Shown piece after piece: positions 15,863 to 61,320 of a DNA stretch of 61,445 nucleotides. The position numbers and the translations under genes are program-made. Positions within the stretch are counted from its first letter, which is position 1, and every line of letters begins with the position of its first letter. A model generated the notes under the pieces. That model saw nothing but the letters and a program-made list of their open reading frames with translations. It had not been told where the DNA came from and searched no databases. The stretch is from Lewinellaceae bacterium (GTDB lineage: Bacteria > Bacteroidota > Bacteroidia > Chitinophagales > Saprospiraceae), in contig CANJPT010000009.1 in assembly GCA_947476195.1 (NCBI GenBank), forward strand, positions 2,501 through 63,945, given 5' to 3'.

Positions 15863-18800
15863 TCAATCCACCGTCACTTCAATTTGGAGTGTCACGTCGT
15901 CATTCAATTCGACGGCCTCTCCTTCCACCAAATCCGCCAGCACCAACGAATTTGCCAGCACCTCATCCTGGATATATGCACCAAACTGCTCCACAGCCGA
16001 CACGATCGCCGGATGGCGTTCGATGCGTACCGCGATGCGATCGGTTACGTTGAAATCCTTGTCTTTACGAATGTTCTGGATTCGGTTCACCAGGTCGCGG
16101 GCTGTGCCTTCCGCCAGGAGCTCCTCGGTTAAGTTGACGTCCAGGGCAACTGTGATGGATCCGTCGGAAGCTGATTTCCAGCCGGGCAGATCTTCTGTAA
16201 CGACCACCAGATCTTCCGGACTAAGGGTATAGACCGTCCCTTTGATATTTACCTCCAGAGCGCCCGTTTTTTCAAGAGAAGCAATTTGTTCGTTTGAAAA
16301 ATTAGCGATCAAACCAGCCGCATCTTTCATATCCTGGCCAAGTTTGGCGCCGAGTGTTTTGAAATTTGCCTTTGCCGATTTTTTCAAAAGCCCGCTGGAG
16401 TCGGTGACGTACTGAAGTTCCTTCACATTGATCTCACTCAGGATCAAGGCTTTTACCTCGTCTACTGCCGTGATAAATGCCTCATCAAGCACGGGCAACA
16501 ATACTTTTTGTAGCGGCTGACGCACGCGGATCTTTTCCCTTTTGCGGATACTGAATGCCAGGGAACAAATGCGTTGAGCGTAGTCCATCCGGGTCTCAAG
16601 AGCCAAATCGATCTTTGAAATGTCAGGTTGCACGAGATCCGTAAGGTGCACTGAATCATGCCGGAGCGGCGTATTTTTTGCCTTCGCCTGCTCTTTGATC
16701 GAAGCGGTCAGGTTGCGATACATCCAATCTGAAAAGAACGGTGCGACGGACGCCATAAGCTGTGTGGTGACCATCAGGCACTCGAACAGGGTTTGATAGG
16801 CCGCTGTTTTATCTTCGTTCAGGTCTCCTTTCCAGAAACGGCGACGAGAGAGCCGTACGTACCAGTTGCTCAGATGCTCATCCACAAAGTCTTCGATGGC
16901 GCGGCAGGCTTTTGTCACATCATAATCGTCCATGGCAGCACGGTAGTCCGCCACCAGCGAGTAGAGTTTGGAAATGACCCAGCGATCCAGCTCAGAGCGT
17001 TTTTCATACGGCATGACGTTGAACTCGTCGTGTTTGAACCCGTCGAGATTGGCGTACAGCGCGAAGAAATTGTAGGTGTTGTAAAGGGTTCCAAAAAGCT
17101 TGTTTCTGGTCTCCAGGATGCCTCCGGTATCAAATTTCAGATTGTCCCAGGGATTGGCATTTGACATCATGTACCAGCGGGTAGCATCTGCGCCAAACTC
17201 CGAAAGGGTCTCAAAAGGGTCTACAACATTGCCTTTTGACTTGGACATTTTTTCTCCGTTTTTGTCCAATACAAGGCCATTGGAGACCACATTTTTGAAG
17301 GCAACGGAATCGTACACCATACCCGCGATGGCGTGCAAAGTATAAAACCAGCCCCGGGTCTGATCCACCCCTTCAGCTATAAAAGTGGCCGGATAACTTA
17401 CTTCGAAGGGTGATTTGAAGGGTTTATCGTCCCCGTTTTTCAGTTTTTCGTAATCCAGACCCCACTGGGCATAAGGCATGGCGCCGGAATCGAACCAGAC
17501 GTCGATGAGGTCGGTTTCGCGATACATGGGGCGGCCAGAGGGGGAGATAAGGATTACTTCGTCGATGAAGGGTCGGTGGAGATCAAACCCCTCCCCTTGG
17601 GGGAAGGGGGACTTGATCTGTGTATTTGCTTTGAAATCTTTTGTTCCTTGAGGGTTTTGATTGGTGATTGTTTCTAATTCTTTCTTACGCCTTTTGAGGA
17701 TGATGCGCAGTTCATCAAGGACTTTGTATTTGTGGCCAAGGATGTCTTCATTTTTGAACCGTATTACCTCAAAACCAACGGCATTGAGTAGTTCGGTTCG
17801 GATTTGGTCATATTCTGGTTGAAAATCGTGGATAGTGCCGTCTACTTCCACTACCAATTTATGTTCGAGGCTCACGAAGTCGGCTATAAAATTCTCTATG
17901 GAGTGCTGTCGGCGAAACTTGACCCCATCCAACTGCTTATCTCTCAAAAGTTCCCACATAGCAGCCTCTCCTGCCGTCTGATTTTTACGCATGCCCCGCG
18001 CAAATTCCTTCAAATAAGCCCAACGCTCCGGCGAAGTTGTTTTGAACCAATCCCCACGAAATTCTTCCATAAACCTACCATCTTCCCCAAGGTCATCACC
18101 ATTCGCAGAGAAACCCGAGTGCAAGTCCCCTTCCCCCGACGGGGAGGGGTTAGGGGTGGGGTTAAACGGATTGCTCCCCATCATCCCTGCCTTCAACGCC
18201 TTCTCAACTTCTCCACTCAATTCCATGACTGAACCTATACAGATCTCCTCTTCTCCATCTTCTGTGCGCCAGATCGGAAGCGGGATGCCCCAATAGCGGG
18301 AGCGGGAAAGGTTCCAGTCCTGAAGATTGTCAAGCCATTGACCAAAACGGCCTGTTCCAGTACTTTCCGGATGCCAATTGATGGTTTTATTCAATTCTGA
18401 TAGCCGATCCTTTGCTGCAGAAGCCCTTACGAACCAGGAATCCAGCGGATAGTAAAGCACCGGTTTTTCTGTTCGCCAGCAATGTGGGTAAGTATGCTTG
18501 TATTTTTCAATTTTGAAGGCTTTATTGTCCTCCTTCAGACGCAAACCAACGAGCAAATCCGTCGGTTTAAAGTCCTTATCCTTTTGAATTTCAATGGGAT
18601 AGTATTCGGATTTGACATATCGTCCGCCGAATTCAGGCACCTCGTCCACAAATTTCCCCTGACGGTCAACGAGTGGGAAAGGCAGACCTGAATTTTTCTC
18701 GTTTGGAAGGCCGATAAATGGAATACCAGCGGTCTTACAGGCCCGGAAGTCATCTGCACCAAAATATGGTGCGGTGTGTACTACACCGGTGCCATCTTCG

Positions 18801-52345: not shown

Positions 52346-52810
52346 ATGCCAAACACTTACACCCAACTCTATGCCCAATTGGTATTCGCCGTAAAAGGCC
52401 GACAAGCACTGATCCAAAAACAACACCGCGAACAAATCCACCGATACATCACTGGCATCGTTCAAAAGCGCGGGCACAAAATGCTTGCAATCTTCTGCAT
52501 GCCCGATCATGTCCATATTCTGGTGGGCTTCAAACCAACAGGGTCGATTTCTGACCTGGTGCGTGATATCAAAACTAACTCGACCATTTTTATCAAGAAA
52601 AACCAACTCGCCTCTTCCAGTTTTGCATGGCAGGAAGGCTTTGGCGCCTTTTCGTATGCCCATTCACAACTGGATTCGGTTTGCAAGTACATTTTGAATC
52701 AAGAAGAACGGCATAGAAACCGCAGCTTTAAGCAAGAATACCTTTCATTTTTAGAAAAATTTGAAGTGCCACATGAAGAGCGGTATTTGTTTGAATGGCT
52801 GGAGTATTGA
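52346..52810 (+). CDS. REP-associated tyrosine transposase (IS200-like, RAYT)
   Basis: 154 residues. A Y1 HUH transposase: the HUH pair is HVH (55-57) in FCMPDHVHILVGF and the nucleophile is Tyr115 in SVCKYILNQEERH. QLVFAVKGRQALI at the start and GSISDLVRDIKTNS are typical of the IS200/RAYT group. These enzymes cut single-stranded DNA at hairpins. No IS200-type ends flank it, but a cluster of REP-like hairpins lies immediately upstream, so it is best seen as a domesticated RAYT working on its own REP family. Both catalytic motifs are intact. Confidence 0.9.
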   Translation: MPNTYTQLYAQLVFAVKGRQALIQKQHREQIHRYITGIVQKRGHKMLAIFCMPDHVHILVGFKPTGSISDLVRDIKTNSTIFIKKNQLASSSFAWQEGFGAFSYAHSQLDSVCKYILNQEERHRNRSFKQEYLSFLEKFEVPHEERYLFEWLEY

Positions 52811-61127: not shown

Positions 61128-61320
61128 TATGGTCATTTAGGTCATTAGTCATTGAGGTAATTGGGAGCTTTGGACTTGCTTAGTTTTGTTCATGACTCCC
61201 AATGACTAATGACCCCAATGACTAATGACCCCAATGACTAATGACCCCAATGACTAATGACCTCAATGACTAATGACCCCAATGACTAATGACCCCAATG
61301 ACTAATGACCCCAATGACCA
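61128..61320. repeat. 16-bp tandem array attached to a convergent-gene palindrome
   Basis: AATGACTAATGACCCC repeats 7.5 times without gaps from 61201 to 61320; the fourth unit has one change (CCTC). The reverse complement of the unit occurs once in GGTCATTAGTCATTGAGG (61140-61157), and CTCCCAATGACTAATGACC (61195 on) pairs with it, so the array extends one arm of a terminator-like palindrome between the reductase and the WG-repeat gene. Confidence 0.85.

Follow-up and report, generated by a model that had tools for sequence, protein, structure and literature searches.

Homing nucleases that reside in essential genes usually have the damage that they cause hidden by an intron or an intein. Vsr-like (EDxHD) homing endonucleases are known, among them the intron-borne I-Bth0305I. 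In Rickettsia, palindromic elements (RPEs) occur in frame in many unrelated protein genes (PMC10969869 and PMC3733652); these elements are ~150 bp long and code for a conserved short peptide (PMC10969869). One of these sources (PMC3733652) also reports REPs inside ORFs, at about the same recB site in two species, as well as REP-transposase units (REPtrons) and the CGTC repeats, a REP superfamily without a dedicated transposase. The Caulobacter DUF559 protein VsrA is the reported cause of an SOS response in cells without a solitary cytosine methylase (PMC12907096), which implies that the DUF559 family can act on DNA in vivo.

The locus described here lies in the isoleucyl-tRNA synthetase gene (ileS) of a Lewinellaceae bacterium of the phylum Bacteroidota, within a stretch of 61,445 nucleotides of contig CANJPT010000009.1 (hereafter the window). 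Like the RPEs, the elements of this kind are in-frame, stop-free palindromic insertions in many unrelated genes, with empty alleles in relatives; unlike in the RPEs, a pair of inverted hairpins here encloses a conserved ~105-aa nuclease domain. With REP/REPIN sequences and RAYT genes (REPtrons) they share paired inverted REP-like hairpins around a nuclease-type gene and nuclease-free copies elsewhere, but here the enclosed gene is a DUF559 (PD-(D/E)XK) protein, no Y1/HUH transposase gene was found enclosed by them or alongside in the fetched loci, inspection by eye turned up no GTAG tag, and the nuclease-carrying form is often found inside genes, in frame. The predicted fold is akin to that of I-Bth0305I and Vsr, and conserved sites in conserved genes are likewise patchily occupied; in contrast to the intron-borne enzyme, there is no sign of an intron or intein, and the reading frame runs through the insert. 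As in inteins with homing endonucleases, the nuclease is within the frame of an essential protein, but no intein model matched and the site is a variable loop, not a catalytic motif. Caulobacter VsrA and the Neisseria protein 3hrl, stand-alone DUF559 or Vsr-like proteins, belong to the same domain family but are free-standing genes, and the VsrA paper does not mention palindromes (PMC12907096). Already known are in-frame palindromes (in Rickettsia), REP-transposase units and Vsr-like homing endonucleases. The literature searched, outside which most subscription journals lie, yielded no description of a nuclease-carrying, in-frame, unspliced form and no paper linking DUF559 with palindromes or REPs; nor did the search return a paper on a very-short-patch-repair endonuclease with in-frame insertion.

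Our preferred reading, to which we assign a probability of about 0.6, is that the ileS insert represents a family of mobile elements with hairpin borders and a Vsr-like DUF559 nuclease, which reside in genes in frame, apparently unspliced, at tolerant loops or protein ends. The element would be homing-like, and its movement is suggested by comparison of sequences.

The initial annotation had described the ileS frame as open through about 190 non-IleRS residues between NPF and DLHRPFID. Both statements hold: there is no stop inside the ORF, and a 192-residue insert is bordered by NPF and FDLHRPFID; the limits first given to it (17586-18166) were refined (Table 1). The Pfam domains follow the order tRNA-synt_1, DUF559, Anticodon_1 and others, and the TIGR00392 (ileS) profile matches two stretches with DUF559 in between. 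The reading of the insert as an intein was rejected since no intein model is among the six Pfam matches of the frame at E 0.001. No second IleRS above the family cut-off was found among the matches listed for this genome (97% complete), so the filled ileS is probably the IleRS of the cell. By eye, the motif FKTTSPERW of the lead segment resembles the Y/F-x-T...W/Y lead of other inserts. Far from the gene, at 61192-61318, the window has 7.9 tandem copies of a 16-bp unit, with 97% matches.

Table 1. Coordinates of the features of the ileS locus, given as positions in the window
Feature	Position	Strand	Evidence
ileS (isoleucyl-tRNA synthetase), insert included, 1348 aa	15863..19909	-	ORF, Pfam, TIGR00392 E 9e-268
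In-frame insert, aa 583-774, 192 aa, flanked by NPF and FDLHRPFID	17588..18163	-	empty alleles of relatives
5' terminal repeat in gene sense, head AACCCCACCCCTAA plus hairpin, read as NPTPNPSPSGEG...	18122..18163	-	G020 elements have ends like it
Spacer and lead segment (FKTTSPERW at 18020-18046)	18014..18121	-	omega 0.15-0.43 in 5' spacer
DUF559 nuclease domain (Vsr-like PD-(D/E)XK)	17705..18013	-	Pfam E 2.7e-34; 3hrl E 1.2e-19; pLDDT 84.5; Foldseek
Putative active-site residues D677, E688, D690 (H694, D701, R704 further on)	17840..17881	-	columns invariant in 40/40 of the embedded clade
Hairpin at the 3' end (gene sense), translated as SPFPQGEG, inverse of the 5' hairpin	17586..17615	-	arm comparison, pattern search, folding

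The nuclease domain matches Pfam DUF559 (PF04480) at aa 633-735 of the ileS product with 117.8 bits, against a cut-off of 20.6, and its D, E, D, H and D columns are intact. The DUF559/Vsr-like domain proposed from the sequence, with D663, E674 and D676 in place, is thus present; counted from the TTG start, as done here, these residues are D677, E688 and D690, the lower numbers being counted from an ATG 14 codons later. Column counts show no variation at Asp677, Glu688, Asp690, His694 and Asp701 across the 40 members of the embedded clade described below, and the fold suggests a catalytic role for the first three. The solved chain closest by sequence, 3hrl, is also the best Foldseek match of the AlphaFold model of the domain (7.1e-8), followed by the catalytic domain of I-Bth0305I (3r3p; 2.1e-5, TM 0.66/0.77) and, more weakly, by Vsr (1cw0; E 2.1e-2). 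Both the invariant catalytic columns and a homing endonuclease as the second-best match of the predicted fold are in favor of a mobile element.

As noticed initially, the ends of the insert are inverted copies of a GC-rich hairpin: the arms at 17586-17615 and 18122-18151 comprise 30 nt each and are 87% complementary. A one-arm pattern with up to 3 mismatches matched only these two places in the window and none in 100 shuffles. The 5' end in gene sense includes a head, and the 3' end is a hairpin without the head of the G020 elements. Folded as single-stranded DNA, the 3' hairpin is better than shuffles (z -3.24) and the 5' hairpin is not (z -0.62). Hairpin-flanked copies elsewhere, another expectation of the initial annotation, are found in genes of relatives but not in the same genome, where the search for a second good copy of the ileS-insert hairpin gave just two 3-mismatch matches, a point against a mobile element. 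On the whole, the refuting conditions named in the initial annotation turned out largely in favor of its reading. The second DUF559 of this genome is a stand-alone gene beside a different hairpin pair; for that hairpin, two exact pairs and one 2-mismatch match were found in the genome, compared to 3 matches of the reversed control.

In the genus, the same ileS site exists in three states. Among the 30 best-scoring ileS loci, a sample of best matches that tilts toward unsplit (empty) genes, as filled genes score in pieces and therefore rank low, 25 are empty, one contains a hairpin pair alone, and 4 were unreadable with the motif used. The empty sites in relatives that had been set as a check therefore exist, and the reading of the insert as a fixed ancestral domain of IleRS was rejected. 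The empty alleles L073, L085 and L094 share the extended flank of the filled ones (e.g., ...AGLMADNPYKGG-FDLHRPYID). The empty-looking loop of L085 (genome G005) reads AAAGGAGGGTTTGAT, which resembles the hairpin's 3' end; it is possibly a scar left by a lost element. Another empty ileS (L080) nevertheless has a stop-to-stop frame of 1354 aa because the frame runs on upstream of the gene. Filled with DUF559, ileS was found in 8 of the 41 genomes searched (G000, G006, G007, G021, G030, G033, G034 and G455); the filled gene of G033 is on a short contig, and G030 also possesses an empty ileS on another contig (L096). In L004/L022, the ileS sequence ends at the 3' hairpin and other sequence continues to the contig end, which reflects either a rearrangement at the repeat or an assembly join.

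The hairpin-only allele, in genome G020 (L087), is in frame and nuclease-free, and its ends are identical in 38/40 and 40/40 positions to those of the DUF559 element in the AAA helicase gene of the same genome, as expected of a non-autonomous derivative. Terminal inverted repeats along with non-autonomous copies are features of insertion sequences and MITEs. This correspondence, together with the occurrence of empty, hairpin-only and filled sites within one genus, argues for mobility.

In a tree of 140 DUF559 domains (104 alignment columns, bootstrap not settled), which took in part of the stand-alone hits so that its proportions are not frequencies, 40 domains form one clade (95/95) in which 37 are located in host frames. 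The tree requires at least two origins of the ileS inserts, the DUF559 domains of the eight filled genomes falling into at least two lineages. Group 1 (the window, L003 and L004) joins the insert of G455 and two helicase inserts and, more widely, inserts in MutS, HemD and a third helicase, all of the same genus; group 2, with the ileS inserts of five genomes, is separate from it. The PurL and UvrD inserts of genome G224 are kin to two stand-alone copies there, and the MetH copies of four families cluster, with an M23 insert among them. Such recurrence in one loop and kinship of copies across genes favor a mobile element. Embedded domains of HsdR, HsdM, Eco57I, HemF and more fall outside the 40-member clade. 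A nuclease-free hairpin pair in frame was also observed in G224, at 1500-1620 of L208, in an open frame of ~1039 residues.

Within group 1, the nuclease has an omega of 0.033-0.064, IleRS upstream of the insert one of 0.035-0.037, and the spacers range over 0.15-0.77; third-position identity of the domain is about that of the host. The nuclease domain of the window is, judging from these values, under purifying selection as strong as that on IleRS itself, and the ileS copy looks old and vertically inherited together with the gene. The lower omega of the group 1 nuclease, compared with the spacers, is a further point for the preferred reading. In group 2, the amino-acid sequence of the nuclease changes faster than that of the host, and no omega is given because the synonymous sites of the nuclease are saturated. 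For L015 and L017 of this group, third-position identity is 0.57-0.84 in the host and 0.45 in DUF559, which points to an older or separate history of the insert and is compatible with movement; as a point against that reading, this is one pair of ten, the other pairs being near saturation and less clear.

Beyond ileS, a DUF559 match was found in 222 of 395 genomes searched in the phylum. Ranked by E-value and not drawn at random, the 150 best hits per family came from the 395 genomes for DUF559 and from 148 for the two controls; 49 of the DUF559 hits, 2 of the GIY-YIG hits and no Y1_Tnp hit lay in a frame of 300 aa or longer, an excess that also speaks for in-frame mobility. A long frame between two stops does not by itself prove embedding, as L080 illustrates. 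All 49 long-frame hits were read, and their hosts were identified with Pfam or through BLAST matches to members named by Pfam; L107 and L108 have no recognisable host, L043 (HsdS) was named by eye only, and L139, a diverged fusion, was excluded from the host count. Altogether, 23 host families are named by Pfam. They are IleRS, LeuRS (two sites), MetH, methylmalonyl-CoA mutase, MeaB, HemD, HemE, HemF, HisF, a PurL-type amidotransferase and N-formylglutamate amidohydrolase; MutS, RecG, UvrD, an AAA_11/12 helicase, RNase H and an M23 peptidase; and HsdR, HsdM and Eco57I-, ISP-, MmeI- and N6_N4-type methylases. The MeaB and methylmalonyl-CoA mutase hosts are possibly parts of one fused protein, 7 of the 23 families include fusions at protein ends instead of internal insertions, and some hosts are restriction-modification proteins, for which a nuclease fusion could have another reason. 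The initial proposal of in-frame entry at tolerated loops gains good support from these 23 families, from the empty and hairpin-only alleles and from the multiple ileS lineages. One of the two LeuRS sites (L114, L118, L122) is located just ahead of a STMPGWAGSSWYW motif, and may be the equivalent of the insert site in IleRS. In L104 (genome G321), the HsdR frame has, ahead of its DUF559 insert, a GIY-YIG domain that is likewise in frame (Pfam 4.7e-14); nucleases of other kinds may thus get into genes in this manner too.

The ends of the relatives were compared over 250 bp on each side with 1,333 control windows, after 17 of 147 domains had been dropped (duplicates, contig edges, N runs). Among embedded copies, 28/46 had an inverted pair above the 99th percentile of the control, as did 14/16 fused and 42/68 stand-alone ones, again in favor of a mobile element, whereas 13 of 39 members of the embedded clade have no such pair (26 have), which counts against it. 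An insensitive test for a palindrome on one flank (95th percentile of the control) was positive for 11/40 (5') and 15/40 (3') members of the clade and for neither flank in 20/40, the copy of the window among the latter. Many ends thus appear to be eroded, absent or missed. Direct repeats exceed the 99th percentile of the control in 43 of 68 stand-alone copies, and in the examples read among the high scorers they are two-hairpin units, REPIN-like in look. In L006, L061, L067, L148, L167 and others, a stand-alone DUF559 gene is found between direct repeats of hairpin pairs of ~100-260 bp.

The metH gene of one genus allows a second comparison of filled and empty sites. Of 91 genomes searched, 86 matched; the metH match is split by an insert in 10 genomes, partial in one more and unsplit in 69. 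In the comparison with 30 empty rows, which as best matches tilt toward unsplit genes, the filled metH of G382 nests among empty sisters with starred support, and at least two changes are forced, another point for mobility. The G382 insert replaces residues of the metH linker. Classical homing by double-strand break repair often leaves a co-conversion tract; the 60 bp on each side of the G382 insert resemble the empty sisters to the same degree as the rest of metH, and hence no co-conversion is seen. For homing, the patchy distribution would be compatible and the absence of co-conversion not supportive. The mobile-element reading is further weakened in that no target-site duplication is visible at the metH junctions, and in that at third positions the insert has, on average over 66 filled pairs, not diverged further than the host (0.50 vs 0.46; lower in 19 of 66), which implies that much of the distribution may be old or vertical.

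If the hairpins are the ends of a mobile unit, the enzyme that moves them need not be DUF559. In IS200/IS605 elements, TnpB accompanies TnpA; by analogy, a single-strand transposase of the Y1 (RAYT) type might act in trans on REP/REPIN-like ends and move them, DUF559 being cargo or a retention nuclease, a scenario that we regard as plausible but somewhat short of an even chance. The hairpin pattern occurs in 85 of 395 genomes, that of the window not among them, and a strong DUF559 is present in 59 of these 85 compared to 104 of the other 310 (odds ratio 4.5, p 5e-9, kinship ignored). Among 148 genomes, hairpins were found in 23/44 with both DUF559 and Y1, 5/41 with Y1 only, 3/19 with DUF559 only and 8/44 with neither (kinship again ignored). 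The association of hairpins with DUF559 is therefore limited to genomes that also have Y1 transposases, at the expense of the preferred reading, and these counts make a Y1 transposase a serious candidate for moving the ends, although without DUF559 it shows no effect on the hairpins (5/41 vs 8/44). Insertion by such an enzyme would need no target duplication, in agreement with the metH junctions, and the solo DUF559 genes read as examples have REPIN-like pairs of inverted hairpins at their flanks. The genome of the window has 7 Y1_Tnp matches, one of them a RAYT-like gene at window positions 52358-52702, ~34 kb from the element; against this, a phmmer search with the protein of that gene as the one query, limited in sensitivity, found no relative in the 274 fetched loci. 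No strong DUF559 is found in G144 (32 hairpins), which has Y1_Tnp, or in G060, whose 12 hairpins occur with neither family and so weigh against the Y1 scenario. Nuclease-free hairpins, in 40 regions from listed places with three beside known DUF559 inserts left out, are inside ORFs in 3/48 cases vs 581/1,200 random positions. Residence in genes thus appears to be mainly a property of the nuclease-carrying form, and the mostly extragenic position of the other hairpins counts against the preferred reading.

Domestication, under which an old insertion was kept for a benefit to the host (e.g., DNA repair or anti-phage defence) and is now a plain domain of IleRS, would account for the similar omega of domain and host in group 1 and for their similar third-position identity, which indicates inheritance with the gene. 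A selfish homing nuclease, however, would be under selection too, and the empty alleles within the genus, the further copies in many unrelated genes and the different DUF559 lineage in the same ileS loop of sister species make this explanation unlikely. It is far less probable still that bypassing during translation, RNA processing or protein splicing keeps the nuclease out of the mature product, leaving a normal host enzyme: the paired inverted ends could bring the borders together, and yeast mitochondria are known to bypass inserted blocks (PMC5009743), but the insert is in frame and stop-free, the Pfam matches include no intein model, and the nuclease coding sequence is conserved as protein. 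A chimera of assembly or binning is conceivable to the extent that the window and many relatives come from fragmented assemblies and that L004/L022 turns to non-IleRS sequence past the 3' hairpin. Given the same architecture in two Saprospiraceae MAG records (L003, L004) and in single-contig genomes (G161, LeuRS and RecG; G087, LeuRS; G190, HsdR; G294, MetH; G170, HsdR), a chimera is extremely improbable for the window, and an assembly artefact was rejected as the cause of the phenomenon.

Under the preferred reading of a hairpin-bounded mobile nuclease element, the segment would have moved as DNA into a protein loop, and in essential genes only in-frame, tolerated insertions would survive. 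The host transcript would supply the nuclease as part of the host protein, and the nuclease would cut insert-free alleles and so favor the keeping or spread of the insert, as homing endonucleases do, without an intron or intein. We propose, more tentatively, a phylum-wide extension: unspliced in-frame homing elements of a dedicated hairpin-ended DUF559 clade may re-enter the same loops of IleRS, LeuRS, MetH and RecG and now and then reach other genes. The nuclease would act on alleles that lack the insert, the hairpins would be the ends used in transposition, and neither intron nor intein would be needed.

The nucleases described here appear to stay in the frames of essential enzymes, in the lineage of the window under selection, and loop tolerance would thus be a third way to hide. 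If this is true, the REP-like hairpins of Bacteroidota would gain a candidate partner enzyme, and one type of odd domain fusion met in annotated genomes would be explained. Insertions in about 20 unrelated genes of related bacteria point to mobile DNA of a kind that is little known and stays concealed within functional genes.
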